Notes under the pieces: generated by a model
What the model was told of the DNA's origin: nothing
The model's input: only the letters and a program-made list of their open reading frames with translations
The model's database searches: none
Assembly: GCF_900110645.1 (NCBI RefSeq)
Contig: NZ_FOFB01000003.1
Coordinates: 1-64,000, forward strand
Reading direction: 5' to 3'
Origin: Neolewinella agarilytica
GTDB lineage: Bacteria > Bacteroidota > Bacteroidia > Chitinophagales > Saprospiraceae
Length of the DNA stretch: 64,000 nt
Part shown: in pieces, positions 3,596-63,005 of the stretch
How positions within the stretch are numbered: position 1 is the stretch's first letter
How the letters are laid out: every line of letters begins with the position of its first letter
Made by a program: the position numbers and the translations under genes

Positions 3596-3618
3596 GGGCG
3601 CTCACCGCAGGGGCAAAG
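3596..3618 (+). repeat. Dispersed bipartite repeat, copy 1 (intergenic)
   Basis: GGGCGC-TCACC-GCAGGGGCAAAG, with AGCA 14 nt further on. Upstream of the lipoprotein gene. Confidence 0.7.
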
Positions 3619-3721
3619 GGGCTGTTTAGGAGCAAGGTGGCGTTGCATCGAACCATTAGCGGGTTAAAGTAGTCATGTGTTTGGGCGCTTTACCCAATTC
3701 CCTCACAAAATCACCCACAGC

Positions 3722-4246
3722 ATGAAACCCATCTACCTCCTTTTACTCCTCTTTATGGCCATTGGCTTCTTCGCCTGTACCGAAGACCCTACTCAGGTGG
3801 CTACCGAGCTTGTCCCTCAGCCGGAGGGCAAAGTACTGGACGCCCAAAACTTCGCTGACCTAACTGGCTTTATGGTCGAATTTGGCCTTTTCGAAGAAGG
3901 AAATCTGGTGGACCTGGAAGATTACGGCAGTGAAGACCTGCGTTTTTACCTCAATGATAAAGGCGAACTTGATCTTGATTTTCTAACGAAGGGTGGGGTC
4001 TCCGGAAAAATGACGATTGAGGAAGCTCTCGCGCACGCCCCCGTTCGTAATTGGCGGGAGACCATCGAGCTATCCTTTGACGAAAAAGAAGCTCCCCGCC
4101 TGCAGGAATGGTTGACGCAAAACTTTGCCGGGGCGGAGTATCTTGATCTGCGGATTTCCTACTTGGTCAACGGCACCATTGTGTTCAGTGGGCTACAGCC
4201 TCCTGCGGAAGACCTGATAGAGTTTGAGGCCGTGCCTTTGATTTGA
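3722..4246 (+). CDS. Small lipoprotein of unknown function
   Basis: A 174-residue protein starting MKPIYLLLLLFMAIGFFACTED. The hydrophobic segment ends in an FFAC lipobox, so it should be a lipid-anchored envelope protein. A longer reading from 3677 adds 15 residues before the signal peptide and is unlikely. The mature part is acidic and I recognise no domain. It stands alone between a divergent flavoprotein gene and truA. Confidence 0.75.
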   Translation: MKPIYLLLLLFMAIGFFACTEDPTQVATELVPQPEGKVLDAQNFADLTGFMVEFGLFEEGNLVDLEDYGSEDLRFYLNDKGELDLDFLTKGGVSGKMTIEEALAHAPVRNWRETIELSFDEKEAPRLQEWLTQNFAGAEYLDLRISYLVNGTIVFSGLQPPAEDLIEFEAVPLI

Positions 4247-4271
4247 TATCTGGCCGGGGGGATTTTGTCAC

Positions 4272-4367
4272 TCGTTGGAGTAACACGGGACGCTTGAAGG
4301 TCCTTCCAGGAGGCTTCGAGGTCCGCTAAGCCCCACGTAAGCCGTACCTTCGGCCCGTGTCAACGAC
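4272..4367 (+). repeat. MITE-related repeat overlapping the truA start
   Basis: The core at about 4281-4333 matches the core of the MITE-like element at 31301-31424, allowing a few mismatches and one gap. It carries the GGAC-n8-GTCC mini-hairpin GGACGCTTGAAGGTCC. The bounding inverted sequences are TCGTTG...ACACGGG (4272-4290) and CCCGTGT-CAACGA (4354-4366). The right end contains the truA GTG start codon. No clear target duplication is seen. Confidence 0.5.
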
Positions 4368-5163
4368 CCATCATTATTTTCTTTCACTTACCTATGACGG
4401 TACGGCTTACCGGGGCTGGCAGCGCCAGCCCGGAGGCGTCGTCACGGTGCAGCAAAGCCTGGAGGAAACCCTGAGCGAAATCCACGGCCGGGAAGTCATT
4501 CTCGGCGGCTGTGGCCGTACGGACGCCGGCGTACACGCCAGCCAGTACTACGCTTACCTGCGTACGGAGAAGGCGCTGAACGACAACTACGTCTTCATCG
4601 TGAATAAGCGGCTGCCGGAGGGCATCGCGCTGCGCGAAGCCATCCCGGTGTCCGACAAAGCCCAGGCCCGCTACGATGCTACGGAGCGGACTTACGACTA
4701 CTACTTTCACGGCCAGCCCGATGCCTTCCTGGATCGCTACAGCTCCCTGCTCGATTTATCCTCCTTTGCACCTGCGGTGAGCGCCCAAACGCTTCCCTTA
4801 CTGCTGCAATACACCGACTTCCGCGCTTTCTGCAAAACCCCCGATCGCCACAATACGACCCTGGTACATTTTCGGGAAGCGACGCTCTTCCGGAACCCCA
4901 CAGGTGATCGCTACCGGCTCCGCTTCGTTGCCAACCGATTTCTACGCGGGATGATCCGTCTGCTGGTCAATGACCTGCTTATGGTCGGTAAGGGCCAACT
5001 CTCCGCCACCGACTTCGAGCGGATGCTGCAAACCGGTGAGCGGAAACCGCACTTCCGTCTCGCTCCGCCGGAGGGGCTTTTTCTCACGGGCGTTCGCTAT
5101 CCTTACATCGACCAGGAAGCGGTGCTGCCGGTGAGTGGGAGAGGGGAGTGGATCGCTCTTTGA
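4357..5163 (+). CDS. truA: tRNA pseudouridine(38-40) synthase TruA
   Basis: A 268-residue TruA-family enzyme that isomerises uridines 38-40 in the tRNA anticodon arm. The family motif LTYDGTAYRGWQRQ appears at 11-24, and GCGRTDAGVHA contains the catalytic Asp (about D56). FRAFCK and RFLRGMIRLLV mark the C-terminal half. The start is GTG at 4357; the conserved region begins only about seven residues later, so no alternative is needed. This GTG lies inside the right inverted end of a repeat element (4272-4367). One copy of the dispersed GCAGGTGC repeat lies inside the gene (4764-4786) and encodes the loop SFAPAVSAQ. Confidence 0.92.
   Translation: MSTTHHYFLSLTYDGTAYRGWQRQPGGVVTVQQSLEETLSEIHGREVILGGCGRTDAGVHASQYYAYLRTEKALNDNYVFIVNKRLPEGIALREAIPVSDKAQARYDATERTYDYYFHGQPDAFLDRYSSLLDLSSFAPAVSAQTLPLLLQYTDFRAFCKTPDRHNTTLVHFREATLFRNPTGDRYRLRFVANRFLRGMIRLLVNDLLMVGKGQLSATDFERMLQTGERKPHFRLAPPEGLFLTGVRYPYIDQEAVLPVSGRGEWIAL
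4764..4786 (-). repeat. Dispersed bipartite repeat, copy 2 (in truA)
   Basis: On the minus strand GGGCGC-TCACC-GCAGGTGCAAAG, then AGCAGGG 14 nt on. Encodes part of a TruA loop. Confidence 0.85.
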
Positions 5164-5165
5164 AG

Positions 5166-6602: not shown

Positions 6603-6653
6603 AGTTAATAAGACTAGTGTTGACCTTTGGCAAGGTGGATAACCCAAATATAA

Positions 6654-7106
6654 CTACTCTTTTTGCTTAGAGTCCACCCAAATCGTCACCGGTCCGTCGT
6701 TGACCAGGGCCACTTGCATGTCTGCACCAAACTCGCCCGTTTCCACTTGTCGTAAGGCGGTAAAGGATAGCTTTTTTACAAATTGCTCATAAAGTGGAAT
6801 GGAGATCGGTGGCTTCGCGCTACGGGTGAATCCGGGGCGATTACCCTTTTTCGTGCTGGCAAAAAGCGTAAACTGAGAAACGACGAGCAGCCCGCCGTCA
6901 ACGTCCATCACGCTGTGATTCATTTTGCCATCCTCGTCGCTGAAGATGCGCATATTCGCAATTTTATTGCAGAGCCAGTCGATGTCTTCCTCTCCGTCGG
7001 CTTCTTCAATGCCAAGCAGAATGAGCAGGCCCTGCTCTATCTGGCCCGTCACTTTATCGTTGACCGTTACGGAAGCAGAAGTAACTCTTTGGAGAAGCGC
7101 GCGCAT
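6654..7106 (-). CDS. dtd: D-aminoacyl-tRNA deacylase
   Basis: A 150-residue protein of the DTD family, which hydrolyses D-amino acids mischarged on tRNA. It has the expected length, the N-terminal [15 protein letters not shown], the signature SQFTLFAST, and the C-terminal [11 protein letters not shown], which corresponds to the cross-subunit GxPVT-type motif. It lies 51 bp from the next minus-strand gene and 57 bp from the GNAT gene upstream. Confidence 0.95.
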
Positions 7107-7141
7107 GAAGATTCTTTTTAGTGGACAATAATTTCAGGCCC

Positions 7142-7167
7142 AAAATACCAAAGAACCAAAAGACTAA
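7142..7167. repeat. Low-complexity word CCAAAGAACCAAAAGACTAA
   Basis: The 20-mer CCAAAGAACCAAAAGACTAA (7148-7167) recurs exactly, inverted, at 47397-47416. The neighbouring CAAAATACCAAAGAACCAA is matched at 47513-47531 with one change. The word overlaps the stop codon of the GNAT gene (7164-7166). Confidence 0.75.
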
Positions 7168-7709: not shown

Positions 7710-7721
7710 GTTGATGTATCC

Positions 7722-7735
7722 ACGGCTTTAGCCGT
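7722..7735. repeat. Short palindrome ACGGCTTTAGCCGT
   Basis: A perfect short hairpin upstream of the GNAT gene. The form resembles the small palindromes scattered in genomes that carry REP-like sequences. Only one clear copy was found here. Confidence 0.35.
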
Positions 7736-7834
7736 AGGGTGGCAAAGATTATAATTTCCTTTGAAATGGGACGCTTGAGTTCGTCGACCGGAAATTACGA
7801 CGTAGGCGTTTGGCTAGCCCTCCGAAGGTAACCC

Positions 7835-8509: not shown

Positions 8510-8570
8510 AGGATTTGATCAGTTAGTCTGAAGTCGTAACGTTGGAACGGGCATGATCGTTTTTTGCGAC

Positions 8571-8587
8571 GGCGCGCAGGTGCAATG
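8571..8587 (+). repeat. Dispersed bipartite repeat, copy 3 (intergenic, shortened)
   Basis: GGCGC directly joined to GCAGGTGCAATG; the usual 4-nt spacer is missing. AGCAGC follows after 14 nt. Near the infB terminator. Confidence 0.65.
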
Positions 8588-8646
8588 GTGGGGTGAAAAA
8601 GCAGCAAGGTTGCCGCTTTTGACCATCCGCTGTTTTGCCAAAACAA

Positions 8647-8688
8647 AAGCCCCGCCCGACAATTACGTCGAACGGGGCTTGTTTTTTT
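8647..8688. terminator. Rho-independent terminator after infB (bidirectional)
   Basis: Stem AAGCCCCG (8647-8654) with CGGGGCTT (8673-8680) and an inner CGAC/GTCG. It is flanked by a T-run on the plus strand and an A-rich stretch (TTTTG on the minus strand), so it can serve the minus-strand infB transcript. Confidence 0.85.
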
Positions 8689-8704
8689 GAGCGGCAGACG
8701 AGCG

Positions 8705-13814: not shown

Positions 13815-13861
13815 AGGTTGAGAAATACTTGGTTTTAAACATGGCTGTCAAAAGAACCTCC

Positions 13862-13884
13862 CCCTGCATCCTGCGTCCGCGCCC
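13862..13884 (-). repeat. Dispersed bipartite repeat, copy 4 (intergenic)
   Basis: Minus strand GGGCGC-GGAC-GCAGGATGCAGGG. In the rimP leader, between the leader hairpin and the start codon. Confidence 0.75.
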
Positions 13885-13910
13885 TCATCTGAATTGAGGA
13901 GTAGGGACAC

Positions 13911-15349: not shown

Positions 15350-15553
15350 AATGTATGAATTGTAGCGGAGATTAAGGTGATAGTTTACTAATGACTCCCC
15401 GCTGGGTTATTGGGTTAAATTCAATGGTTACAATAGAAGAAACGATTGTTTTGTTCATGCCATTTCCCGCTTGGCCAGCCGTTTAACCAACTACTGTTAA
15501 AGTGCAGATTTTGGTGAACAATTTTCGCCAGCTCCTTGAAAGTCAGTTATTTG

Positions 15554-15576
15554 GGGCGCGGCCGCAGGGTGCAAGG
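15554..15576 (+). repeat. Dispersed bipartite repeat, copy 5 (intergenic)
   Basis: GGGCGC-GGCC-GCAGGGTGCAAGG, with AGCA downstream. Between the SulP gene end and the fasciclin gene start. Confidence 0.75.
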
Positions 15577-15621
15577 CGGGAGCATTGAGGAGCAGGGGAG
15601 TGGCAGTGGCTCTCAGGGGGA

Positions 15622-18108: not shown

Positions 18109-21100
18109 ATGCAACACGGCTCTACGCTCCGTTCCATCATTACTCTTTTTTTCTTTTGTTGCCTGCTGGCTCCAATGAGCCTGCTGGCTCAGCGGCCCGT
18201 AGCGGTAAAGATTCCTGATGTTTCTAAGGACAAACTGCCTCTCCCGTTAAAAATGGACTGTAATGATGCTGGCCAGGTAAGTGAGTTCGCTGACTTTCAA
18301 ATGGTGAGTACAAGTTTTGGGACCAATATTCAATCTACTGATGTTCGGCCCTTCAACAACCGACCAGATACTATCTTCCTTTGCTTTGATGATCAATTTA
18401 CGGTAGACATCGTTCCGGGGTCTGAAGATCTTTCCGGAGATCCCTTCCCGGCCACAACGCCAGGAGTCGGCTTTGCTTTCTATCGCTGTGCACCAACGGT
18501 CACCGGGCCAACTATTCAGGATATTCGTGCCGATGCCTGTGTAGCCGATAACGGTCTCACTCCTTTTGATGCTCTGGCCGTTGGCGTTAATGCTACAGGG
18601 TACGCTACGGGAGACTATAAGCTAATCGTTGCTAATGATTTGCAAGGAGGATTTACGATTCCCGGCCTTTTTCCCGTTGGAGGAGAACCAACTCCGGTAG
18701 TGTTGACGCTGGCGCCCATCACTTTTGACGATTTTGACGATACTGCGTTTGAGGCAGTTTATGAAGGCAACCCCATTGGCCAATGTGTCGATGTTGCCAT
18801 AGATCAACGATTTCAGGTGGCTTACCTTAATCCAGTCAATGTGGCTAACCTTGGCGTTGATCCGGGCATCGCTTGTGAAGGACTGTTTGATGTTCGGGGG
18901 GGGACCCCGGAGCTACGTGGTGGTACGGGATATAATATCACCATTGAAGAGACAACTACGGGAGCAAGGGCAACGATCCTTACCCCATCAGACCAGATAG
19001 TGCACAACGCCGTAATCCGTTATCGGGTGCCGGCTGCAGGTACTTACCGTATCTCCATTGAAGATGCTAATGGCTGCCCACTGGAAAATACGACCATTAC
19101 GCACACGGATGGCTGCCCGCAGCCAGTCGGTTTTACCTTCCCTTACGGTACGGGCTTACCGGGCGAAAGCTTCTGTCTCCCCGTAACGGTGGATAATTTT
19201 ACGGACGTTGTTGGTTTTCAGTTTGAACTTGGATTTGATCCTGCAGTACTTCGTTTTGATAGCTTAAACAACTTTAGTACTGACCTTGTCGCCGGTGTCG
19301 CGTTTAATGGCCCGGTAAGCAGTGGGGGCACACTTAGTGAAGGAACGGTCCGAATAGTTTACAGCGATAACTTTGCTGGTCCTTCTACGATTCCCCAAGG
19401 CGGGCAAATCTTTGATGTATGCTTTACCATTATTGGTGATCTGGACGATCAAAGCCCACTGGACTTTAATACTGGAGCAGGTACAATTGGTGTTGAGTAT
19501 ACCCGAGACTCTGGAGAAATAGGGGAGCCAACGAGTCGCCCGGGGGCTATCTCCGTAACCGATCAGGCCTTCCTGGTGGAGCTTGATCCGGAAGGAGAAA
19601 TCTGTGTCGATAGTGACGATGGAAGCATTATGGTCCGGGCCTCCGGTACGGAGGGGCCGTTTGAGTTTTCTCTTCGCCAGATAATGCCGGTGCTGGAGCC
19701 AGGCTTCAGACCCTCACAGACCCAGAACACGGTTCCCGCAACCATCACCTTCCCGAGCCTGGAGGCGGCAACCTATGAAGTCCGGGTAGTCGATGGAAAC
19801 GGAGCGGTTGTTTTGCAGGAAATTGAGGTGGCGTCCGGTTTGGACGTCAACGTAATCGTACTGGTAAACAATGCCCCGTCCTGTGCCGGATTTGATGATG
19901 GGGAGGTACGTGCTGATGTATTTGCTAACGGAGTACTCGTAGTGGACCCCGTCGCGGCAGGCTATACTTTTGCCTGGGAGAACAGCACGGAAACCAGCGA
20001 AGTACTGAGTAACCTGACCGCAGGAAACTATGAAGTGACGGTTACCGCTCCGAATGGTATTTGTAGTAGTACGGATATTGGTCCTTTGGGCGACCCTGAT
20101 CCGGTAACCACTCCGACCATGAACATTGATGATGCTACCTGTTCCGGAGCACCGGATGGCTCTATTGCCGTCGGTGCCCAGGGGGGCGTTGGTCCCTATG
20201 ATATTCAGTGGCCAGGAGCATTGGGGACTGACATGGGGGTGTCGACTTCCTTCCGGGACAACCTCCTCCCGGGTGATTACGAGGTCTTCGTAACCGATAG
20301 CGAAGGGTGTGCGGATACCTCCGTTTTCACCCTTTCTGCAGAAAAAATACTGGACATCAATTTCACGATTGACAGCATCGCCTGTTTCGGAGATGCGAAT
20401 GCGGTCATCAACGTCAGTGGTACGGTGACGGGGGCTCCGCCCGTTGGGGATTATTTCGCCCGAATTGTGAACCTGGCTACTTCGGTAGTTGGGCCGGAGG
20501 AGAGAATTGTCAACAATGACCCCTTCCCCTTCTCTGGTTTGGATACGGGAACCTACGTGATCGTACTCCGGGACGAAGACCCTGCAGGCTGTGAGACGAC
20601 CGATACCATCAGGATTACGCAACCCGACTTACTGGAGATTGACGATGACCTGATGATCACCAATGAGACCTGTACGACGGGGATGGACGGGACGGTTACG
20701 GCCGCCGTTGCTGGCGGCACCATGCCCTATGAATATCGTTGGGTAAACGATAGCCTCGATATGCCAATGGACACCATCACGCCGGGAATGGCCCTGACCA
20801 GCCTGAGCGCTGACACCAATTATATACTCATCGTGACGGACAGGAACGGTTGTACGGACACCGCTCGTTTTACCATCAATGCACCTGCGGCCGCGCAACT
20901 AATGCCCATTGATACCAGCTTCATTTCCTGTCCCGGAGATGCGGACGGGCAACTTACGGTAGTGGCTACCCCGCCCATGGGAGAAACGATTACCAGTTTC
21001 CGCTGGTTCCGGGTCAACGCTGACGGTAGCTTAGGCAGCCTAGTCGCTAATGGTGCTACAACAGACGATAATCTGCCAGTAGGTGTTTACGAAGTGCAGG

Positions 21101-23000: not shown

Positions 23001-23063
23001 GCGGCTGGCCAACCTTTATTAATCCTTAGTGATTGATGACCGTTGGCCAGCCGCTTCTTTTTT
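23001..23063 (+). terminator. Terminator after the T9SS adhesin gene
   Basis: A perfect 13-bp stem, GCGGCTGGCCAAC (23001-23013) with GTTGGCCAGCCGC (23042-23054), has a loop of about 28 nt and is followed by TTCTTTTTT. It is immediately followed by a copy of the dispersed repeat (23064). Confidence 0.85.
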
Positions 23064-23085
23064 GGCGCAGGACGCAGGTGCAAGG
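23064..23085 (+). repeat. Dispersed bipartite repeat, copy 6 (intergenic)
   Basis: GGCGC-AGGAC-GCAGGTGCAAGG, then AGCA 15 nt on. Abuts the T-run of the adhesin terminator. Confidence 0.8.
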
Positions 23086-23210
23086 GGAAGGAAAATGGAG
23101 CAATGAGCTCAGGAAGACACTTTTCAAACAAAAACATTACGCAAAAAGATTACAAAAATGCACTTATCGTCATAAAGTGAAAATATTTTTGCTTTTTTAT
23201 ACATAAAGTG

Positions 23211-26645: not shown

Positions 26646-27518
26646 ATGGAAGACAAGACCATCCTCATAACTGGAGCAAATGACGGCATTGGCCGCGCCA
26701 CAGCTGAACGGCTGGCGGCCCGGGGTGCGCACCTCGTACTGGCCTGCCGGGATGAAGTGAAAGCCCAGCAGACGGCCCAGGCTATTACCAGCAAAACGGG
26801 CAACCATCGCATTGATACCCTTCCGTTGGACTTAAGCAGCTTTCGCTCGGTTCGGGCGGCAGCAGATGAGTTTTTGGCCGAGCATCCTAAGCTTGATGTG
26901 CTGATTAATAACGCAGGCGTATATACCGATACACTGGAAATAACGGAAGATGGCTACGAGTTACAGTTCGCCGTCAATCACCTCGGGCATTTTTTGCTGA
27001 CGATGTTGTTGCTGCCGGCCCTGCGTTGTTGCCGGAACTGTAGCCGGGTCATTAATGTGAGCAGTGCGCTGCACTTTAAGGGGGGGCTTGATTTTAGTTC
27101 CTTTGACGGGAAGGCCGCAGGCAAAAGCTACAGCGGTACGAAAGCTTACGCCCAGAGTAAACTCTCTAATGTGCTCTTTACGATGGAGCTGGACCGACGC
27201 TTCGGGCAGGAGTTGACGACGAACTGCCTGCACCCTGGTCTGGTGGGTACCCGGCTGGCGAATAAGAAAGCCGGAGCGCTGACGAGTACGGTTTGGTCTA
27301 TGTACAAGCCCTTTGCCATCAAACCAAACAAGGGGGCGGATACGTCGGTCTACCTGGCGGCAAGCCCGGAGGTGAAGGATGTTTCCGGCCGGTATTTTGA
27401 CGAAAACCAGTGCTTGCAAAAGCCATCGAGCATTGCCCGCAATGAGCAACTGGCCCGCCGGCTGTGGGAATACAGTGAGCAGGCCGTAGCGGATTTCCTG
27501 AAGGGAGAGGAAGAGTAG
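26646..27518 (+). CDS. Short-chain dehydrogenase/reductase
   Basis: About 290 residues, classical SDR fold, of the retinol dehydrogenase/WWOX-like kind. The NAD(P) motif is TGANDGIG, followed by NNAG, a Ser in INVSSALHF and the catalytic YAQSK. The C-terminal half ends in a charged tail. ATG at 26646 is preferred; GTG at 26640 is in frame. The substrate is unknown. The stop codon TAG at 27516-27518 shares its last base with the first base of a dispersed-repeat copy. Confidence 0.9.
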   Translation: MEDKTILITGANDGIGRATAERLAARGAHLVLACRDEVKAQQTAQAITSKTGNHRIDTLPLDLSSFRSVRAAADEFLAEHPKLDVLINNAGVYTDTLEITEDGYELQFAVNHLGHFLLTMLLLPALRCCRNCSRVINVSSALHFKGGLDFSSFDGKAAGKSYSGTKAYAQSKLSNVLFTMELDRRFGQELTTNCLHPGLVGTRLANKKAGALTSTVWSMYKPFAIKPNKGADTSVYLAASPEVKDVSGRYFDENQCLQKPSSIARNEQLARRLWEYSEQAVADFLKGEEE

Positions 27519-27542
27519 GGCGCGGGGCCGCAGGTGCAAAGG
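27518..27542 (+). repeat. Dispersed bipartite repeat, copy 7 (at SDR stop codon)
   Basis: GGGCGC-GGGGCC-GCAGGTGCAAAG. Its first G is the last base of the SDR stop codon. Forms an inverted pair with copy 8. Confidence 0.85.
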
Positions 27543-27651
27543 AATTGCTTGATAACAGCAGTGGCTGCTGCCTCAACCCTCCGTCTCAGGAGAATCGTTT
27601 TGGATGGAAAGACCGTGCTTGCGGCGGGGCACTCTCTGCTCTTTTACCCCG

Positions 27652-27674
27652 CTTTGCACCTGCGAGTTGCGCCC
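27652..27674 (-). repeat. Dispersed bipartite repeat, copy 8 (intergenic)
   Basis: Minus strand GGGCGC-AACTC-GCAGGTGCAAAG, then AGCAGAG 13 nt on. Points toward copy 7; upstream of tatC. Confidence 0.85.
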
Positions 27675-27746
27675 CCGTACTATCAAATTGCCGTCACGTT
27701 TGCGTTTCCCCTTTTCTACTAAACCCGCAATCTTTACCTTCGCCTT

Positions 27747-34943: not shown

Positions 34944-35311
34944 CTTCTTTAAACCCAGCGTTGGTTTTTTTGACGCCGGGCGGGATCGTTTGTCACGAAT
35001 AAAAGATGTTCGAACATTCATTAATCGTCTGAAAGACCCCTTGTTTGTTGACTTATAGCAGATTTAGCTGGTTTTAAGTGGAGTAGAAAAAAAATGAAAA
35101 TAATTCTCATTTGTTCTGGAAAACGGGCGCTCAGCGCCCTGAATGATCCCACTCTGCTTTCTCAACGCTCTCTTCGCACCTGCGGCAGCGCCCCTGAATC
35201 ATGCTTGTTATTGGTCCTATTCATACGGCATTCCCCGCCCATCCCCAGCGTTTCCGGCGGGAAAGGGGTACTCCGAGTAAAAGAAAATCATGCAGTTATT
35301 TCCGGGAGGAG
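34944..35311. other. Intergenic region between purK and csp
   Basis: Holds a perfect 12-bp palindrome ATGTTCGAACAT (35006-35017) and one dispersed-repeat copy (35172-35193). No gene was recognised. Confidence 0.5.
35172..35193 (-). repeat. Dispersed bipartite repeat, copy 10 (intergenic)
   Basis: Minus strand GGGCGC-TGCC-GCAGGTGCGAAG, then AGCAGAG 15 nt on. Between purK and csp. Confidence 0.85.
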
Positions 35312-39765: not shown

Positions 39766-39988
39766 CTGATCGGGTATCTTTAAAAGCTTTGTTTTGTTGG
39801 TTAGTCAGTGAATGCACTTACATTCATTCTTACCTTGGGTAACGCCAACGGGCACCTTCGGTTCGAGGATTACTTAACAGCGAGCAAATAACGTGATTTT
39901 ACGTCGCCTAAACGTACTTTTCAGCTGGAAAATCCTTGCTGTTGCCAAATAATTGTTTGTAGGGTGCTCATTGCCAGCTACAAACTCC

Positions 39989-40011
39989 CTTTGCACCTGC
40001 GCGGGGCGCCC
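39989..40011 (-). repeat. Dispersed bipartite repeat, copy 11 (intergenic)
   Basis: Minus strand GGCGC-CCCGC-GCAGGTGCAAAGG. Just beyond the SpoIIM-family gene stop. Confidence 0.8.
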
Positions 40012-40035
40012 CAAAAGGAGCTCTTTTAGCACAGG

Positions 40036-42026: not shown

Positions 42027-43019
42027 TCATATCTTCCCGGCCGCCTCATTATAGACTACTGCGAGGACGACCTGGCCGACGGCGCGTAGGGTGCGCTTGT
42101 CGATATTATCCATGTTGTCATCGCCGGTGTGCCAGTGGGCGACGAAACCACTTTGAGTTTCGGGGCGGTGATTGATGATGTCCACCATGGGGATGCCTGC
42201 ATCCCGCATGATAAAAAAGTGGTCGTCAGTTACTCCGGGGCTTCCGTCTTCCTTTGGGAAATAGCTTCCGAAGCCCATTCCTGCAGCCATGTTCCAGACT
42301 TTCTTTACCACTTCGGGAGCGTTGGTTTTGGAGTAACCTTCGATGGCGAATCGCGCGTTGCGTGCGCCGACCATATCGAGCAAAATGCCGTAGCGTGGTT
42401 TGGGGGCTTTCACGGTTTTGGCGTAGTGCTGGGCGCCGAGGCCCCAGCTGTCAGCATTACCGGAGTCGCCCTGATCTTCTGCGTCGAGAAAGATGATGTC
42501 GACGCCGATATCGGGAGTGGAGAGGCCGAGTTGCCGGGCTACTTCGAGGAGGACGCCGACGCCGCTGGCACCGTCATCGGCACCCATGACGATGGCGGTG
42601 GGGTCGTCTTCGAGTTGGCTGTCGGCTACGTGGCGGGTGTCCCAATGAGCGGCCAGCAGAAGCCGGTCAGTTGACTGAGGGTTGTAGCGACCAATGATGT
42701 TGGTGCCCTTGTAGCCGTTGGCGGTGAAGGTTTGCAGTTCAACGACGGCGCCGAATTCTTTCAGTTTGCCGGCGAGCCATTCCCCGGTAGCGTCGTGCTC
42801 CGGGGTGTTCATCATGCGGGGGCCGAAGGCCACCTGGCGGGCGACGTAGGCGTAGGCGCTGTCGCGGTTGAAGGCGGGTACGGGCTTGGCTTCTGATTTT
42901 GGCGCAGGCGCGGCCGCAGGTGCAGAGGGCGTGTCTACGGCAGCATCCTCTCCACAGGCGGTAAGCAGAAGGATAAACAGGAGGCTAAGTAATGGGCGGA
43001 AGGCTGAATGTGGGCGCAA
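42027..43019 (-). CDS. M28 family peptidase lipoprotein (glutaminyl cyclase-like)
   Basis: 330 residues. The signal peptide has lipobox LLLTACGED. A Pro/Ala linker follows (PSAPAAAPAPKSE), then an M28 zinc hydrolase domain. Metal ligands are visible in LLAAHWDTRHVAD, MGADDGASGVGVLLE and FLDAEDQG. VTDDHFFIMRDAGIPMVDII and HWHTGDDNMDNI follow. The WGLGAQHYA context resembles bacterial/plant-type glutaminyl cyclases. The linker after the lipobox is encoded by a dispersed-repeat copy (42907-42927). Confidence 0.9.
   Translation of the reverse strand: MRPHSAFRPLLSLLFILLLTACGEDAAVDTPSAPAAAPAPKSEAKPVPAFNRDSAYAYVARQVAFGPRMMNTPEHDATGEWLAGKLKEFGAVVELQTFTANGYKGTNIIGRYNPQSTDRLLLAAHWDTRHVADSQLEDDPTAIVMGADDGASGVGVLLEVARQLGLSTPDIGVDIIFLDAEDQGDSGNADSWGLGAQHYAKTVKAPKPRYGILLDMVGARNARFAIEGYSKTNAPEVVKKVWNMAAGMGFGSYFPKEDGSPGVTDDHFFIMRDAGIPMVDIINHRPETQSGFVAHWHTGDDNMDNIDKRTLRAVGQVVLAVVYNEAAGKI
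42907..42927 (+). repeat. Dispersed bipartite repeat, copy 12 (M28 peptidase linker)
   Basis: GGCGC-GGCC-GCAGGTGCAGAG, with AGCA 16 nt on. Encodes the SAPAAAPA linker after the lipobox. Confidence 0.8.
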
Positions 43020-45070: not shown

Positions 45071-45162
45071 TCGCCCAACTAATTTAAAGCAATTGGCTCA
45101 AAAAACAGGTAAGGTAGTAGGAGGGGGTGGTACTTCAGGCACTGCTTTTTAAAGACCTCTTC

Positions 45163-45186
45163 CCCTGCACCTGCGGTCCCGCGCCC
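45163..45186 (-). repeat. Dispersed bipartite repeat, copy 13 (intergenic)
   Basis: Minus strand GGGCGC-GGGACC-GCAGGTGCAGGG, then AGCAGTG 18 nt on. Between the LysE-type gene and the GT39-like gene. Confidence 0.8.
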
Positions 45187-45203
45187 CATTTGACAACGTA
45201 TTG

Positions 45204-48900: not shown

Positions 48901-48949
48901 CGGGTTAAGCAGCAGGGAATTGAGGGGCACTTCCGGCAAGTTCAGCAGA

Positions 48950-48969
48950 GGCGCGGCCGCAGGTGCAAA
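48950..48969 (+). repeat. Dispersed bipartite repeat, copy 14 (intergenic)
   Basis: GGCGC-GGCC-GCAGGTGCAAAA, with AGCAGGG 13 nt on. Upstream of the plus-strand hypothetical gene. Confidence 0.85.
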
Positions 48970-49036
48970 AGTTTGTTGGATAGCAGGGAGGGAACAGGCC
49001 CGTCGCTTAGTACATTAGCTACACTTTTGTCACTTC

Positions 49037-50573: not shown

Positions 50574-52009
50574 ACACTCTCCCGCATTAACCACTGCTTC
50601 GCGACCAGCGGATCCGTTTCCCCGATGGTTTGGTGGAGGGAGGAGAGTTTCTTGTCGTAGCTCTTCCGGTCCATAAAGTCGGCCTGATGTTTTAGGTTGA
50701 CGAGTTGTTTCGTAAAGCGGACGTAGTTGGTATAGCTGCGCTTGTCTTTAACGCTGATATTCTTATTGCGACGGACATAAAGACGGAAGGTCTCCAGCAA
50801 ATTAAGGGCGTATTCCTGGTCCGCCTGATCGTAGGCGATTCTTACCTCCAGCAGCACCCGGGCAAGGTGCACCTTTACGTCGGAGTCGGAAACGGTGATG
50901 AGCAGGTCAGTCGCTTCGTCGTAGCGCTTGAGACTGTAGAGGAATTGGGCTTTGTTGAGGGCGTAGGCATTGTCCCGTTCGCGTTCGGGCAGGCGCTCAC
51001 GGTTATCTTCAATGAAGCGCTCGGTCCATTCGTGTTCCCCGGTGGCGGAGCCGAGGGTTACGATGTTTTTATAGTCCCACTCACTGATGATATCCTTATT
51101 GTAAATGATGCCCGTGTCCAGCCCCCGGCGGTAAAGGCTCAAAAGCTCCACGCGATAATCTGCGTGTCCGGTCATAATCCGCTGAATGCAATAGTTGGAC
51201 GCGAAGCCGTAGAGGTCTTTCTGGTGGTCGTAGGGTAGGCGGTCGAAGCTTTCATCGAGGTAAAAGCGCATCCGTTCGTAGTGGCTTACGTCGTCGGGCT
51301 CCCGCAGGCTCATCAGGATGTGGTAGTAGCAGTCGATGCTGGGTTCTACCGTTTCGTTGAGTAGTTGGCTGCCTGCCTCTCCGTTCAAAAAGTCCAGCAC
51401 GGGCTCCAGCAGTAGGAACTCATAATGGGTATTCATCACCATCATGTTAGCGGTGAGCTGGCAGGCGTGGCGAAGTTTTTCTACGATGAAAAACCGGTCG
51501 AGATGGTCAAGCATGGCCTGCATCTCCCGCGTGTCTGAGCGCTTGAGGTTACCCTGATAATAGCCATTGATGGCCTTCCATTCATAGGCGGCCAGGTGGG
51601 TGTCGCCGTCGCGGTACTGGTGTTTTTCTACCATGCGATCCAGCCGTTTACCCCGGTTTTCGAGCAGACGAAAACGCTGCAGTTCCTTCGTGCGCTTCAG
51701 CGTGAGGACCTCTTCGCGGAAGGCTTCGCTCTGCAATTGCTCTACGGCCAGGAAGCGATTAACGAGCTTCATGAGCGATGACTGCAGGCTGGAGAGCGAT
51801 TGCCCGCTGCCCGCAACCTTCACTGCATCCTGCGCCCGCGCCTCGTCCAGCTTCGGCCGTGTTTTACCCAGTTCCTTCAGAATGAAACTAAGCAGCAGTT
51901 CCGTCGCCTCATGCCGGTTAAAGTAGGGGCTGGCCACGAACTGCCGCAGGCGCTCGCGCTCCCGGCCATCCATGGCCGCAATTTGCCGCACTACTTTGCT
52001 GTCTTGCAT
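50552..52009 (-). CDS. Hypothetical alpha-helical protein
   Basis: 485 residues, almost entirely helical, with TPR-like pairs in the second half (ERDNAYALNKAQFLYSLKRYDEATDLLI; HLARVLLEVRIAYDQADQEYALNLLETF). There is no signal peptide. It is probably a cytoplasmic scaffold; the specific function is unknown. A dispersed-repeat copy at 51823-51842 encodes EARAQDA near residue 58. The C-terminal GVDGSR and stop come from the CTACCG array, so the original end may differ. Confidence 0.72.
   Translation of the reverse strand: MQDSKVVRQIAAMDGRERERLRQFVASPYFNRHEATELLLSFILKELGKTRPKLDEARAQDAVKVAGSGQSLSSLQSSLMKLVNRFLAVEQLQSEAFREEVLTLKRTKELQRFRLLENRGKRLDRMVEKHQYRDGDTHLAAYEWKAINGYYQGNLKRSDTREMQAMLDHLDRFFIVEKLRHACQLTANMMVMNTHYEFLLLEPVLDFLNGEAGSQLLNETVEPSIDCYYHILMSLREPDDVSHYERMRFYLDESFDRLPYDHQKDLYGFASNYCIQRIMTGHADYRVELLSLYRRGLDTGIIYNKDIISEWDYKNIVTLGSATGEHEWTERFIEDNRERLPERERDNAYALNKAQFLYSLKRYDEATDLLITVSDSDVKVHLARVLLEVRIAYDQADQEYALNLLETFRLYVRRNKNISVKDKRSYTNYVRFTKQLVNLKHQADFMDRKSYDKKLSSLHQTIGETDPLVAKQWLMRESVGVDGSR
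51823..51842 (-). repeat. Dispersed bipartite repeat, copy 15 (in hypothetical gene)
   Basis: Minus strand GGCGC-GGGC-GCAGGATGCAG, with AGCGGG further on. Encodes ARAQDA. Confidence 0.7.
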
Positions 52010-54045: not shown

Positions 54046-55329
54046 TTAAAACTCCACCCGCAGCCTCGTCCATCCATCGGCTTCCGTCTGGAGTTGGTAG
54101 CTGGCGTCGTGGGCTTCCAGAATATCCCGGGTGAGGGTAAGGCCTACGCCCTGGCCAGTGGGCTTGGTGCTGAAAAAAGGGGTGAATATTTTATCGGCAA
54201 CCTCCTCCGGAATTCCGGGGCCGTCATCAGCGATGATGAATCCATTCGGAAAGGCACTGGAGGAAATGCGGATGTTGCCGTCCTGGTTGATGCTTTGCCG
54301 GGCGTTGGTGAGTGCATTGACGACGACTTGTTCGAGCAGAGCGGCGTCTGCCTTTACCCAGACCCCATCGGGGTGAAGATCATAGCGTAAGTCAATGTTC
54401 TTTTCCCGCAGCACAGTTTCCATTACCTCGCCAGTACGGTGGAGCATGGCGTTAAGGTCGATCCGTTTTTTATCGGGCGGCGGCAGGCGGACGACCTTGG
54501 CGAAATGCCGCATGAAGGACGTCATGTTCTCCGCCCGGTTGATGACGGCCGGCAGGTAGTCTTTGCTCAACTGCCCCAGCCCTTCTTCTTCCTCCGTGGC
54601 GGCTTCCAGCAGACTGCGGAGCACACTCACTACGGCGGCATTGGAGTTGTTTACTTCGTGGGCCATCATCCGGATGACTTTGCCGTAGGCCTCCCGCTCA
54701 GCGGCCATGATTTCGCTGGTCACATCCTGAACCACCAGGAAGCCCCGTTCAAACCCCCGGTCCACAAAAGTGGCCCGCTCTACGTGGTAACGGCGGTTGC
54801 CGGGACCGGTAAAAGTGTCAATGGCCGCAGTACTGTTCTGGCGCGGACGCAGGTGCAAAGAAGGTTCCAGGACAGCCGTGCGAAAGACCTCTTCGCGGCA
54901 GAGCTTTTCCATCCAGTTGTTCATGCTTTCTACCTCCCCGTCGAAGTCGAGAATCACCACCCCGATCTCCGCTGCGGCCAGCAGCCGGTCCAGGAATTCC
55001 TCTTGTTGCCGGCTACTTACCCGCTCGTCCCGCAGTTGATCAATCATCCGGTTATAGATGTTCACGATGCGGTCCATTTCCAGGCTGCCGGTGGGCATGA
55101 GCTTGACGGTGAAGTCCTGGTCGGCCAGCGCATCCGCGCCACGTGCCAGCAGACGAAGGGGCGAGATTAAGGAACGGAAAATCCGATAAGCAATGTAGGC
55201 TGACAGCATCAAAGCGGCTTCCCCGACAAATACCATGTATTTATACCCTTTCAGTTGGTTGAAGACCAGTATGATCAGGGCCAGGTGAATGGCGGCTAAA
55301 TAGAGGATGTATTTTAGAGAAGAGGACAA
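54046..55329 (-). CDS. NtrY-type sensor histidine kinase
   Basis: 427 residues. Two N-terminal helices (7-24, 31-50) are followed by a HAMP-like segment (to about 105) and a PAS-like domain (110-205). The dimerisation/phosphoacceptor region has H224 (MMAHEVNNS). HATPase_c motifs are NALTNA, DDGPGIPEE and GQGVGLTLT. It should phosphorylate the NtrC-type regulator at 56197-57576, from which it is separated by xisH-xisI. A dispersed-repeat copy encodes SLHLRPRQN inside the PAS region (about 157-165). Confidence 0.9.
   Translation of the reverse strand: MSSSLKYILYLAAIHLALIILVFNQLKGYKYMVFVGEAALMLSAYIAYRIFRSLISPLRLLARGADALADQDFTVKLMPTGSLEMDRIVNIYNRMIDQLRDERVSSRQQEEFLDRLLAAAEIGVVILDFDGEVESMNNWMEKLCREEVFRTAVLEPSLHLRPRQNSTAAIDTFTGPGNRRYHVERATFVDRGFERGFLVVQDVTSEIMAAEREAYGKVIRMMAHEVNNSNAAVVSVLRSLLEAATEEEEGLGQLSKDYLPAVINRAENMTSFMRHFAKVVRLPPPDKKRIDLNAMLHRTGEVMETVLREKNIDLRYDLHPDGVWVKADAALLEQVVVNALTNARQSINQDGNIRISSSAFPNGFIIADDGPGIPEEVADKIFTPFFSTKPTGQGVGLTLTRDILEAHDASYQLQTEADGWTRLRVEF
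54840..54860 (+). repeat. Dispersed bipartite repeat, copy 16 (in histidine kinase)
   Basis: GGCGC-GGAC-GCAGGTGCAAAG. Read on the minus strand it encodes SLHLRPRQ in the PAS region. Confidence 0.85.
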
Positions 55330-55338
55330 TGGGGAAGG

Positions 55339-56196: not shown

Positions 56197-57576
56197 TCAC
56201 GTCCCAATCCCATACTTCTCCAGCCGTCGGTATAAGGCAGCCCGCGTAAGTCCCAATTCCCGCGCCGTAGCGGCAATTTCGCCACCACTGCGGCCCAGGG
56301 CCGCCTTGATCATTTTGATCTCCATCTCTTCCAGGGTCATGCCGCTGGGGGTGGCGGACTCGTTGGTGGGCTGTGGCCTGGTGTTACGGTCCAGGTCTTC
56401 GACCTGGATGACAGTCGCCGGAGCCAGAATAGCGGTGCGCTCCATCAGGTTTTGTAACTGGCGGATGTTGCCGGCGAAGGGCTGCCGGCGCAACCATTTT
56501 ATGGCGTCGGGACCTAGCTTTAGCTTCGGCCGTTCGTAGCGCTTACGGGCACTGATGAGGAAGTGTTCGGCCAGCAGGGGGATGTCTTCGGGCCGCTCGC
56601 GCAGCGGCGGCAGGTGGAGGTGGATCAGGTTGATCCGGTAGAGGAGGTCTTCGCGGAAGGTGCCGGCGGTGACCATAGATTGGAGGTCTCTGCTGGTGGC
56701 CGACAGGATGCGTACGTCGGTTTTACGGACGCGGCTGTCTCCCAGCCGCTCATACTGTCGTTCCTGTAATACGCGTAGTAGTTTGACCTGGGCGGCGGGG
56801 GCGAGGTCTCCGATTTCGTCCAGGAAGAGGGTTCCGCCCTCGGCCATTTCGAAGCGGCCTTTTCTGTCGGCCCGGGCGTCAGTAAAAGCACCGGCTTTAT
56901 GGCCGAAGAGTTCGCTCTCGAACAGCCCGGCGGGTACCCCGCCGAGGTTAACGGCGACGAAGGGCTTACCCGCTCGACGGCTCGCTGCGTGGATGGCCTC
57001 TGCGACGAGCTCTTTACCCGTTCCGCTTTCTCCGGTGATGAGCACGGAGGCCTGGGTGGCGGCTACGCGCCGCGCCTGATCAAGGACTTTGTTCAGAGCT
57101 TCGGACTGCCCGATTATGCCCGAGAAAGTGTCAACTTCCCCTGCTTTCTCCGAGCCTTCCGTCGCACCTGCGGCTGCGCCCCCATGCCCGAAACCCGGAG
57201 GCAGCTTGTCGATCTGAATCGACACGGCATTGAGTAATTCCCGGTTGTCCCAGGGCTTCGCGATGAAGTCACGCGCTCCGGCTTTCATTCCTTCCACGGC
57301 GAGTTGAACGGTTGCCCAGCCGGTCATCTGGATGATGGGCAGGCGAGGGTAAGCGGCGAGCAATTTGCGTAGCAGGCTCATGCCGTCCCGGCCGCTGGTG
57401 TCGATGCTGAAGTTCATATCCAGCAAGACCAGGGCAGGCTTGTGCTCTTCTACCGCCGGAAGGGCATCATCCGGATAATTAACGCTGAACGCCCGGTAGC
57501 CCGCCCGCTTCAGAAGAAGTTCGAGGCTGGTGGCGACCATGGTGTCGTCGTCGATAATCAGGATGGCGTGATTCAT
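56197..57576 (-). CDS. NtrC-type AAA+ response regulator
   Basis: 459 residues. The receiver domain has the phosphoacceptor D53 (VLLDMNF). The AAA+ domain (about 150-380) has Walker A GESGTGKE (182-189), Walker B GGTLFLDEIG and the R-finger region. A Fis-type HTH (LEEMEIKMIKAALG...TRAALYRRLEKYG) ends the protein. The sigma-54-contacting GAFTGA loop reads GAFTDA (229-234). The receiver-AAA linker GGAAAGATEG is encoded by a dispersed-repeat copy (57161-57182). It probably controls the efflux genes upstream. Confidence 0.92.
   Translation of the reverse strand: MNHAILIIDDDTMVATSLELLLKRAGYRAFSVNYPDDALPAVEEHKPALVLLDMNFSIDTSGRDGMSLLRKLLAAYPRLPIIQMTGWATVQLAVEGMKAGARDFIAKPWDNRELLNAVSIQIDKLPPGFGHGGAAAGATEGSEKAGEVDTFSGIIGQSEALNKVLDQARRVAATQASVLITGESGTGKELVAEAIHAASRRAGKPFVAVNLGGVPAGLFESELFGHKAGAFTDARADRKGRFEMAEGGTLFLDEIGDLAPAAQVKLLRVLQERQYERLGDSRVRKTDVRILSATSRDLQSMVTAGTFREDLLYRINLIHLHLPPLRERPEDIPLLAEHFLISARKRYERPKLKLGPDAIKWLRRQPFAGNIRQLQNLMERTAILAPATVIQVEDLDRNTRPQPTNESATPSGMTLEEMEIKMIKAALGRSGGEIAATARELGLTRAALYRRLEKYGIGT
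57161..57182 (-). repeat. Dispersed bipartite repeat, copy 17 (in response regulator linker)
   Basis: Minus strand GGGCGC-AGCC-GCAGGTGCGACG, then AGCAGGG 16 nt on. Encodes GAAAGAT between receiver and AAA+ domains. Confidence 0.8.
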
Positions 57577-57638
57577 TTGATGGCTAAGGTTTTGGGCAGG
57601 CTAAGGTATGCCCCGGCTTAATGCAATCGTTAAGGTAA

Positions 57639-58031: not shown

Positions 58032-58079
58032 GGTAGTATAAGGTCTGGTTAGGAATGAGGATGGTTGCAAGGTGAAAGG

Positions 58080-59258: not shown

Positions 59259-59306
59259 GCGTTGGTATTTTAGTTCGTTAAAAAGTGGGTTCCTGTTACC
59301 AGGGTA

Positions 59307-60635: not shown

Positions 60636-60670
60636 AGCTGGATATGTTTTATAAATGAAGGGAGTGGGAG

Positions 60671-60740
60671 CCTAAAAACGAAGCGTCTGCAAGGCCGAAG
60701 GCCGTCTAAAAGCACGTAGTGCATCTAAAAGCAAAGCGTC
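60671..60740. repeat. CTAAAA tandem palindrome cluster
   Basis: Four successive 15-19-bp units begin CTAAAA or CTGCAA and enclose small palindromes (CGAAGCG, GGCCGAAGGCC, GCACGTAGTGC, then a degenerate GCAAAGC). It fills the gap between the ABC ATPase and permease genes. Confidence 0.7.
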
Positions 60741-61462
60741 TAGCTCACGCGCTCCCCGTCCGATAATCTCACCAGTCGGTGCGTCTTTTTTGCCATTCGC
60801 TCGTCGTGTGTTACCATCACGATGGTGGTACCCAGGTCTTCGTTTAACTTCAGGAGAATATCCATTATCTCGTCTCCCATCCGGCTGTCCAGATTACCCG
60901 TTGGTTCATCCGCCAGGATAATGTTGGGGCGGCCAACAATGGCCCGGGCAATAGCTACCCGCTGCTTCTGTCCACCAGAAAGCTGATTAGGGAAATGCGT
61001 GGAGCGATTACTCAAACCTACATGGGCAAGGGCCTCCGTGGCCAGGCGGCGGCGCTCTTTGCTGCCAACTTTGCGGTAGAGTAGGGGCAGTTCGACGTTG
61101 TCCACTACGGTCAGGTCATTGATCAGGTGAAAGCTCTGAAAGATGAAGCCCAGCTGTTCGTTCCGGAAGCGAGCGATCCGTGTTCCGTTATAATCGGTAA
61201 TCTGCTGGCCGGCCAGCGTGACGGTCCCTTCCGAAGGCTCGTCAATTAAGCCCATGATGTTGAGCAGCGTCGACTTGCCGCAACCGGATGGGCCCATAAT
61301 GCTGAGGAACTCTCCGCTGGGGACACTGAGGTTCATCTTCTGCAGGGCAAGGGTTTCGATGGTGTCCGTTCGGTAGGCCTTGCTGACGTTTTTAATTTCG
61401 ATCATAGCTGGAGTGGTTGTTGCGGAAATTGGTGGGGTATTGGGAGTAGTTGCGGTAGTCAT
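60740..61462 (-). CDS. ABC transporter ATP-binding protein (MacB/LolD type)
   Basis: About 240 residues. Walker A is GPSGCGKST, the Q-loop is FIFQSF, the signature is LSGGQKQRVAIARA and Walker B is IILADEPTG. It energises the adjacent FtsX-type permeases. The domain proper starts at 61405 (MIEIKNVSKAY); 61462 adds a Thr/Pro-rich stretch of 19 residues. Either start is possible. Confidence 0.92.
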   Translation of the reverse strand: MTTATTPNTPPISATTTPAMIEIKNVSKAYRTDTIETLALQKMNLSVPSGEFLSIMGPSGCGKSTLLNIMGLIDEPSEGTVTLAGQQITDYNGTRIARFRNEQLGFIFQSFHLINDLTVVDNVELPLLYRKVGSKERRRLATEALAHVGLSNRSTHFPNQLSGGQKQRVAIARAIVGRPNIILADEPTGNLDSRMGDEIMDILLKLNEDLGTTIVMVTHDERMAKKTHRLVRLSDGERVS

Positions 61463-61505
61463 GATGGAGGTTTTGTACCGCCGACTGAAGTCGACGGATG
61501 GTGTA

Positions 61506-63005
61506 CTATTCGCCCAGCGGCTTGTCATTAATAAAGTCCCACAGCGTCAGCCGGGCGAGCCGGGCGTAGGTAGTCCAGTAAGCGCGGAGGGTCTGGGCGT
61601 AGGCCCGGGTGTTCTGGTCCCGGAATTGTTGCGCCAGGCTCAGCTGAGCCAAAGGAATGGCGCCGAGCTCATAACTCTCGCGGCTGATCTCGAAACGCTC
61701 TTGCGCCAGGTCTTTGATCTGAGTAGCCAACTCCAGTTCTTCCTGAACGGTGCGCCATTGATCCAGCAGTTGTACCAGTTCAGTACCCAGATCCATTTCG
61801 GTACGGCGGGCGACTTCTTCCGCCAGACTGCGGTTAGTCGTCGCCTGCTTGTTGAGTGCTTTGCGCTGACCCCAGTCCAGGATGGGCATGGAAAGGTTAA
61901 CGCTCAGGATGCGTTCGTTGCGGGGGTCGGTATAAATGGGCGAGAGGTCTTCATCGTTGCGGATGAAGCCGAAGCCGGCTTCAATGTCAATACGGGGGCC
62001 GAGGTCGCGTTTGGTACGGTCAACCTCCCGATCGGCTTCCATGGTTTGTTGGCGGGCGGCGAGTATTTCCGGACGGCGGTTGAGCATAAATTCGGCGGCT
62101 TCTTTAGCGGATATTTCCGTCTTCACTTTAGCATCGGGCAACTGTGGAAGGAGCAGCTCTCCCTCATAAGGGCGGCCCAATAATTGTTGGATGGAGGCGG
62201 AAGCGGCAGCTACGAGGCGTTCGGCCCGCAGCAGGTTTTGTTCCGCGCTTGTGAGTTCGAGGCGGAGTTGTACCAGGTCACCCCGGTTAATCTTACCGAG
62301 TTCGTAGCGCTTTTCGGCTACGGTGTAAAGTTGTTCGTTAGCCTGTTTGTTAGTCTCGGCAATGCGGCGTTCCTGATCGGCCGAGACGAGGTCAAAGAAG
62401 CGCTCCGTAGCGTCCAGTGCGGCAGTGGCACGGGCGGCGGCCAGTTGCCGTTCGCTCACTTTTTGGGCGAGCGGTAATATTTTCCGATTCCACTTCCAGG
62501 GGTTAAAGGCCAGCAGTGGCTGCCGGTAGAAAAGGCGAATGGGCGAGCCGTTGTACCCCTTGGTGTCTTGTGAAAAATTGTCGGTGCGTTGCAGGCGGCT
62601 CTCCAGGCTGATGCTGCCGCCGGTACTGGCAATTTGCTGGCTGGCAAAGAGGCCGACGAAGCTGTTGTTGAGCTCAATTTCCCGGAAGGCAACGGTGCCG
62701 TCGTCCTGGGTGACTTCAGTGCTGGTCCGGTAGTAATTCGGGAAATTAGCGTTTAGGTCCAGGCGGGGTTTAAGGCTGGCGTTAAAGGCCACCAGGTCAA
62801 GATCGGCCGCGCGGAGATCCTGATCAGCCACCAATACCCCCAGCGCGTTTTGGGCCGCCATTTGTTGTAGCTCGCTGAGGCTGATGGTTGTTTGGGCGCT
62901 AACGCAGGTGCAAAGAAAAGACAAGCAGCAAAGTAGGCCAGCGGTCAACACGAACCTGTTTTCTGTCTGCTTCTTACCCACCTTGATGATCATTGTCTTT
63001 AACAT
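61506..63005 (-). CDS. TolC-family outer-membrane efflux protein
   Basis: About 499 residues. The signal peptide includes LLCCLSFLCTCVSAQ. Two outer-membrane efflux repeats follow, made of long amphipathic helices (AARATAALDATERFFDLVSADQ ... QLRLELTSAEQNLLRAE). It should form the exit duct of the tripartite transporter. The start at 63005 is chosen; the reading to 63080 runs through a heptamer repeat. FLCTCVSAQ is encoded by a dispersed-repeat copy (62894-62915). Confidence 0.9.
   Translation of the reverse strand: MLKTMIIKVGKKQTENRFVLTAGLLCCLSFLCTCVSAQTTISLSELQQMAAQNALGVLVADQDLRAADLDLVAFNASLKPRLDLNANFPNYYRTSTEVTQDDGTVAFREIELNNSFVGLFASQQIASTGGSISLESRLQRTDNFSQDTKGYNGSPIRLFYRQPLLAFNPWKWNRKILPLAQKVSERQLAAARATAALDATERFFDLVSADQERRIAETNKQANEQLYTVAEKRYELGKINRGDLVQLRLELTSAEQNLLRAERLVAAASASIQQLLGRPYEGELLLPQLPDAKVKTEISAKEAAEFMLNRRPEILAARQQTMEADREVDRTKRDLGPRIDIEAGFGFIRNDEDLSPIYTDPRNERILSVNLSMPILDWGQRKALNKQATTNRSLAEEVARRTEMDLGTELVQLLDQWRTVQEELELATQIKDLAQERFEISRESYELGAIPLAQLSLAQQFRDQNTRAYAQTLRAYWTTYARLARLTLWDFINDKPLGE
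62894..62915 (+). repeat. Dispersed bipartite repeat, copy 18 (TolC signal peptide)
   Basis: GGGCGC-TAAC-GCAGGTGCAAAG, with AGCAGC 10 nt on. Encodes LCTCVSAQ, as copy 9 does. Confidence 0.85.

Follow-up and report, generated by a model that had tools for sequence, protein, structure and literature searches.

The described systems that most resemble the repeat treated here are those of the repetitive extragenic palindromic (REP) sequences, their close inverted pairs (REPINs) and the REP-associated tyrosine transposases (RAYTs) of P. fluorescens SBW25 and E. coli. IS200/IS605 relatives cut out, as a single-stranded circle, the DNA that lies between two ends on the same strand, and the role of REP sequences and of domesticated HUH enzymes is still debated. 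In the accessible parts of two papers, TnpAREP is described as strand-specific on folded single-stranded REP (PMC8266576) and single-stranded circles are mentioned (PMC6006769). Here we analyse a short bipartite repeat that is spread over positions 1 to 64,000 of contig NZ_FOFB01000003.1 of Neolewinella agarilytica, the whole 64,000-nucleotide stretch being called the window. The literature retrieved on Bacteroidetes uptake sequences, Lewinella repeats and Bacteroidetes Chi or RAYT, with a coverage that is thin for subscription papers, does not describe it. The family is REP-like and probably RAYT-linked; what is new and strong about it is that same-strand depletion, fixed positions and dialects occur together.

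The repeat is real and occupies both strands. Using a profile hidden Markov model (HMM) and a weight matrix of three blocks, for which 400 kb of contig C27 of the window's own genome (G000) and the window itself served as training sequence, we accepted 19 window copies, 10 plus and 9 minus (Table 1); an earlier note, made from the sequence alone, had counted at least 18, eight of them minus. Its claim that they exceed chance is borne out, as GCAGGTGCAAAG with at most one mismatch matches the window 14 times (shuffle mean 0.42, shuffle maximum 2) and the 13-mer core, at the same tolerance, has 788 matches genome-wide (402 forward, 386 reverse) against 5 (2 and 3) in the reversed control. The matrix gave 139 sites at score 14 in its training sequence and 2 in the reversed sequence, and 114 at score 16 in 360 kb of an untrained relative, G004 (control 0). 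The unit is 42 bp long and recurs about 0.30 times per kb, i.e. once per ~3 kb, from which we extrapolate to roughly 1,900 copies in the genome. Its consensus, TTTGGGCGC-(3, sometimes 4-5)-CGCAGGTGCA[A/G]nGGAAGG-(mostly 5-7)-GAGCA[A/G], has the bipartite form and the AGCA-type tail described earlier, and tolerates one extra core base (copies 13869, 15568 and 51828). The exact 13-mer is present in all 20 same-genus relatives searched, 1 to 244 times each, and outside the genus in 3 of 19 genomes, once or twice only; among the 20 genera sampled, abundance is confined to one. In other genera of the same family, 66-100 kb were screened for each and yielded no k-mer of this kind, a sample too small for exclusion, and the window has no Rfam family match and no tRNA. 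In G021, GGCGGCGGCG is in excess.

The variable spacer between the first two blocks is most simply read as the loop of a small hairpin, GCG-N4-CGC. Two genomes and the window together supply 252 sites with a core that starts with CGC (8 others were set aside); of these, 206 have GCG and CGC separated by 4 nt, 22 by 6 nt, 14 by 5 nt and 4 by 3 nt, and 6 lack GCG. Such loop-like spacing, although it comes without covariation, points to recognition as single-stranded DNA.

Copies facing the same way avoid one another. On 400 kb of C27, with 62 plus and 65 minus sites, the intervals have a coefficient of variation (CV) of 0.46 for plus and 0.44 for minus copies, against 0.98 at random, and 0 of 2000 simulations were as low; with both orientations pooled the CV is 0.83, so that the even spread claimed in the earlier note holds for each orientation and fails for all copies together. 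Neighbouring sites are opposite in orientation in 104 of 126 cases on C27 and in 16 of 19 in the window (a rejected look-alike at 10966 still included), and, close pairs excluded, 84 of the 101 transitions between single copies alternate. This alternation arises because each orientation is evenly spaced, same-facing neighbours being depleted: two independent series with these intervals would be expected to alternate at 74%, and 82.5% is observed. The relatives G004 (CV 0.55 and 0.53; alternation 84/120) and, with its own spelling, G003 (55 sites, control 2; CV 0.49 and 0.53; alternation 42/54) give similar figures. With G000 and G004 pooled, 35 same-orientation pairs lie closer than 3.2 kb where 123 are expected, and the ratio to expectation is 0.16 to 0.49 up to that distance and 0.84 to 1.24 beyond it, which indicates a same-strand exclusion zone with no long-range order; a long-range coverage signal or periodicity is not supported. 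At distances below 200 bp convergent pairs are over-represented, with 14 in G000 and 13 in G004 against about 2 expected in each, and divergent pairs at this distance number 0 and 1, respectively; the depletion of divergent pairs reaches only ~1 kb, that of same-facing ones ~3 kb. Compared with an exclusion model that has a dead zone of 2 kb, the largest gaps of G000 fall short (P 0.005 and 0.011), and those of G004 show no such shortfall (P 0.21 and 0.22).

The places are conserved between species and the spellings vary. We compared the 12 elements that lie between 1 and 20 kb or between 42 and 62.9 kb of the window, 10966 excluded, with two relatives, and found 8 of the 12 in G004 and 9 in G014 at the same place and in the same orientation, matched within 52 bp by anchor mapping, in flanking DNA ~65-83% identical; G005 retains 2 of 7 tested places with the G000 matrix. 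For the NtrC-type gene spanning 56197-57576, whose element is at codon 136, 19 relatives have an ortholog; the same matrix finds the element there in 14 of them, and two more, G003 and G001, have it in a spelling of their own. With its spelling GGGCGGG..CGCGGGAGC, G003 retains 3 of 5 tested places. At such shared places, therefore, the elements kept their location and direction but not their spelling. Positions conserved between species, with only 2 of 19 paired units sharing most of their inner sequence, uphold the earlier idea of recognition over recent clonal copying, whereas the small mobile element also proposed in that note, if taken to hop freely, does not fit many sites at orthologous places in DNA of this divergence.

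The sites avoid coding sequence without being excluded from it. With gene calls from our own script, 77 of the 139 sites fall between genes and the others within them, 32 in antisense and 30 in sense. On the two long contigs the density per kb is 1.4-2.0 between divergent genes, 1.1-1.2 between tandem and 0.4-0.6 between convergent ones, and 0.15-0.17 within genes (the window by itself offers too little sequence for these classes); intergenic DNA is about 2.6- to 13-fold richer in the repeat than genes are. Where copies lie in genes, the frames read through them are tolerated ones, giving LLCTCVSAQ at the ends of signal peptides, APAAAP in linkers, GARTQVQ and GADAGAK. A repeat that codes for signal peptides was rejected, only some antisense-frame copies reading LLCTCVSAQ and most copies being intergenic, as were terminators, the density between convergent genes being the lowest of the intergenic classes.

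Candidate enzymes accompany the repeat. Of 40 relatives, 35 have Y1_Tnp proteins, and a distinct long RAYT-like form is found in 20 of the 21 genomes that belong to the genus, with stops interrupting some of its copies; outside the genus the matches are weaker (best G021, 133 bits, and G023, 100 bits). For the four candidates tested, the best NCBIfam hit is NF047646, REP-associated tyrosine transposase (E 2e-13 to 1e-17), and one compared with the PDB has TnpArep 4er8 as its best match (E 0.0036). Neither alignment shows any variation in the HUH, Tyr and NP columns; the intact proteins listed have 217-245 aa, a Y[VI]LNNP motif and ~60 more residues before HUH than 4er8. The accessible text of PMC6006769 places TnpAY1 subclasses 2.6 and 2.4, likewise class 2 HUH proteins, in Bacteroidetes, and reports atypical structures flanking the genes of the Bacteroidetes subclass 2.6; it is silent on spacing and on any conservation of position. 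The genus gave 59 rows of RAYT-like hits, or 58 genes (one G005 gene is split over two rows), and the flanks of all 58 were examined with three dialect matrices, so that copies in other dialects were likely missed. Within 600 bp of the 48 dispersed genes there are 28 inward-facing and 3 outward-facing element copies, against 74 inward and 56 outward at 211 ordinary genes of similar size from G000 and G004; the orientation bias is clear (P 0.0002, 45 genes). These genes, their NCBIfam and PDB matches and their inward flanks agree with the REP-like nature and the RAYT link that the earlier note had suggested; alternation, same-strand exclusion, hairpin-like spacing and dialects had escaped it.

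The remaining ten genes, in 10 genomes, form a group (group B) that was split off after first data had been seen. Group B looks like one orthologous locus, because the same ORF of ~950 aa recurs ~4 kb away from 7 of the genes; the G000 member is on another contig. In 7 of the 10 an outward-facing element lies 260-503 bp upstream. The members include L287, L289, L290, L312, L351, L356 and L357, and L277 on G000 contig C30; L277 is 40-45% identical to the six other group B proteins aligned and is a candidate for dialect co-evolution.

Taking these findings together, we lean, with somewhat better than even confidence, towards a REP-like, strand-specific hairpin signal that is read as single-stranded DNA by a RAYT-type HUH/Y1 endonuclease. 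One strand, when exposed, would fold into GCG-N4-CGC and present the downstream AGGTGCAAAGG...AGCA to the enzyme; since only one strand would be read, plus and minus copies would be separate targets. Two same-strand copies on one exposed strand, up to ~3 kb apart, could act as the ends of an IS200/IS605-like excision, by which nearby same-strand pairs would be lost, and close inward-facing pairs, as in REPINs, would be the favoured arrangement. The length of exposed single-stranded DNA is near this ~3 kb scale. Many sites would be ancient and maintained, and re-spelled in place, presumably tracking the enzyme that recognises them. Equally simple for the same-strand depletion is redundancy, in which a second nearby same-strand copy is useless and decays; the present data do not separate it from excision. 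A stronger version, which we hold only tentatively and rate below an even chance, is a domesticated RAYT-REP system in which each of the ~1,900 sites is kept by selection per strand, fixed for longer than 25-30% coding divergence takes and re-spelled in concert with the enzyme, so that the genome would carry a single-stranded DNA marking with a 3-kb same-strand exclusion. Single copies conserved between species and a sharp ~3 kb same-strand depletion offer a direct, countable test of whether HUH enzymes of this kind act on single-stranded DNA in living cells, and the same family lets one ask whether such repeats serve the host.

Several observations weigh against the RAYT-read hairpin: (i) the stem is only 3 bp, without covariation, and the consensus has no GTAG or CGTC tag. 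(ii) As many as 62 of the 139 sites (45%) are inside genes. (iii) The NF047646 scores, 51-64 bits, are below the NCBIfam cut-off of 80. (iv) In G018, a fragmented assembly of ~880 contigs, no RAYT-like gene was found, yet the exact core occurs 81 times, and in G010 a RAYT is present, yet exact copies number only 2. (v) An inward copy lies within 600 bp of only 22 of the 48 dispersed genes (26 have none), the excess of inward copies is modest (0.58 against 0.35 per gene; P 0.01, 45 genes), and group B has 0 inward and 7 outward copies. (vi) Divergent pairs under 800 bp are scarce (G000, 0 against 7.3 expected; G004, 4 against 8.1), a shortage that excision does not predict. (vii) In G001 (34 sites, control 1) the plus CV is 0.42 and the minus CV 1.04, with alternation in 21 of 33, so that even spacing is not shown in that genome. 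(viii) For 15 of the 19 paired units the inner sequence was found nowhere else in the sequence searched. (ix) In the accessible text of PMC3116915, SBW25 REPs are random in extragenic space beyond 200 bp and singlets are seen as remnants.

The comparison with the REP/REPIN-RAYT systems runs both ways. They share with the present family hundreds to thousands of short copies, close inverted pairs, an HUH/Y1 enzyme related to TnpAREP, flank copies that face its gene, seen here at 22 of the 48 dispersed genes, and species-specific spellings. Unlike them, the present repeat has no GTAG tag and a tiny stem, is almost half genic, is densest between divergent genes, shows same-strand depletion to ~3 kb and keeps single copies at orthologous places; REPs in genes have been reported, as have REPs lying mainly between tandem and convergent genes (accessible text of PMC3733652). 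With neither a GTAG tag nor a long palindrome, and with so many genic copies, we call the family REP-like and not a proven REP.

The main rival, though an unlikely one in our estimate, is a self-recognition signal for DNA uptake of the kind known as DNA uptake sequences (DUS) or uptake signal sequences (USS), read on the imported strand and spread by biased uptake, in which nearby same-strand copies would be redundant and decay. We know of no uptake signal elsewhere in Bacteroidota, and if this explanation were true the repeat would be the first there, to our knowledge and as far as the partly accessible literature goes. Like USS and DUS, the repeat is numerous, has dialects, here inside one genus at fixed places, has genic copies in tolerated frames and forms inverted pairs; its orientations are equally common, and ComEC is found in 37 of 40 genomes and DprA in 23 of the 26 searched, although both also occur outside the genus. 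What separates them is that the depletion here depends on relative orientation, the sites are not terminator-like, and no convincing type IV pilus ATPase was found in 17 same-genus genomes (PF00437 hits are partial, at most 25.5 bits; other pilus genes were not searched). From what is accessible of the uptake-sequence literature (PMC1939737, PMC2397512, PMC2346458) and of that on type IV filaments (PMC6668835), uptake sequences have been reported as evenly spaced (Karlin et al., as cited) and located in ORFs, though with a regularity judged to fall short of what a compaction signal would show, and uptake by H. influenzae is orientation-independent (all PMC1939737); the densest class here, between divergent genes, and the sparsest, between convergent ones, are unlike the DUS pairs of terminators (PMC2397512).

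We give still less credence to an oriented chromosome-maintenance signal bound as duplex, such as a Chi-like stop or a translocase or nucleoid anchor, even though orientation-specific spacing, conserved positions and independence of gene orientation would all suit it; a loop that varies in length from 4 to 6 nt sits poorly with binding as duplex, and there is no order past ~3 kb. E. coli Chi shares a G-rich asymmetric core and a spacing of a few kb, and differs in strand use and evenness: in 350 kb of K-12, its 71 sites are replichore-biased (27:10 and 5:29) and unevenly spaced (CV 0.90 and 1.13 for the strands with more sites, 1.54 and 0.85 for those with fewer). On this control the Chi reading was rejected, and the balanced strands here, with the different behaviour of E. 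coli Chi, support the earlier judgement that the repeat is not Chi- or KOPS-like.

Least probable is a plain non-autonomous mobile element, of the miniature inverted-repeat or REPIN kind, that is still spreading and has depletion and conservation as by-products: close convergent pairs exist, 2 of the 19 paired units have largely the same inner sequence (82% identical), 2 more share a 29-36 bp piece with another place, and the window singles at 8580 and 42920 are pairs in relatives, but the other 15 inner segments are unique in the sequence searched, most of the 12 window positions compared are common to species of such flank divergence and G003 and G001 use their own spelling at shared places. 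The two similar units are the convergent pairs at 54435-54601 and 63206-63370 of C27, whose shared inner segment is partly palindromic, the only such case in 19.

Table 1. Accepted copies of the repeat in the window (PWM, position weight matrix score; HMM, profile HMM score).
Interval	Strand	Core position	Setting	Score	Relatives
3588..3642	+	3611	core GCAGGGGCAAAG; intergenic	PWM 30.2	same place in G014, not found in G004
4740..4794	-	4770	antisense in pseudouridine synthase gene	PWM 41.9	not found in G004/G014
8557..8611	+	8580	intergenic	PWM 30.7	close convergent pair here in G004 and G014
13839..13893	-	13869	extra core base; intergenic	HMM 16.3, PWM 13.5	conserved in G004 and G014
15545..15599	+	15568	extra core base; intergenic	PWM 21.6	not found in G004/G014
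20853..20907	-	20883	doubtful (first block poor); antisense in large gene	PWM 25.7	
23055..23109	+	23078	intergenic	PWM 39.5	
27511..27565	+	27534	left arm of close convergent pair, 124 bp core to core; intergenic	PWM 36.0	
27628..27682	-	27658	right arm of close convergent pair with 27534	PWM 35.0	
34298..34352	+	34321	antisense in gene; gene frame gives signal-peptide-like LLLLTFLCTCVSAQ across copy	PWM 45.6	
35148..35202	-	35178	intergenic	PWM 33.3	
39965..40019	-	39995	intergenic	PWM 38.3	
42897..42951	+	42920	antisense in M28 peptidase gene (APAAAP linker)	PWM 31.7	same place in G004, G014, G003
45139..45193	-	45169	intergenic	PWM 36.6	same place in G004, G014; not in G003
48940..48994	+	48963	intergenic, upstream of EngA-type GTPase gene	PWM 30.5	same place in G004, G014
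51798..51852	-	51828	extra core base; sense in gene	HMM 15.8	not found in G004/G014
54830..54884	+	54853	antisense, codon 158 of sensor kinase gene	PWM 37.9	same codon region in G004, G014 (weak), others
57136..57190	-	57166	sense, codon 136 of NtrC-type regulator, between receiver and sigma-54 domains	PWM 34.5	
62885..62939	+	62908	upstream of outer-membrane efflux gene	PWM 43.2	same place in G004, G014, G005, G003

Three further window candidates were set aside. The plus-strand hit at 10966 (10953-10975) is a chance look-alike in an Ala/Pro-rich part of the IF-2 gene, and weight-matrix scans over such linkers need caution. The minus-strand hit at 40925 was dropped as weak (score 11.7), and for a decayed partner next to 8580, where the stretch reads as a G+C-rich inverted repeat followed by Ts, we make no claim. 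Elsewhere in G000, at ~299979-304224 of C27 (the end of L064, and L065), lie ~59 regularly spaced repeats with GGATTAAGAC, 71-76 bp apart where printed, which look like a large CRISPR array.

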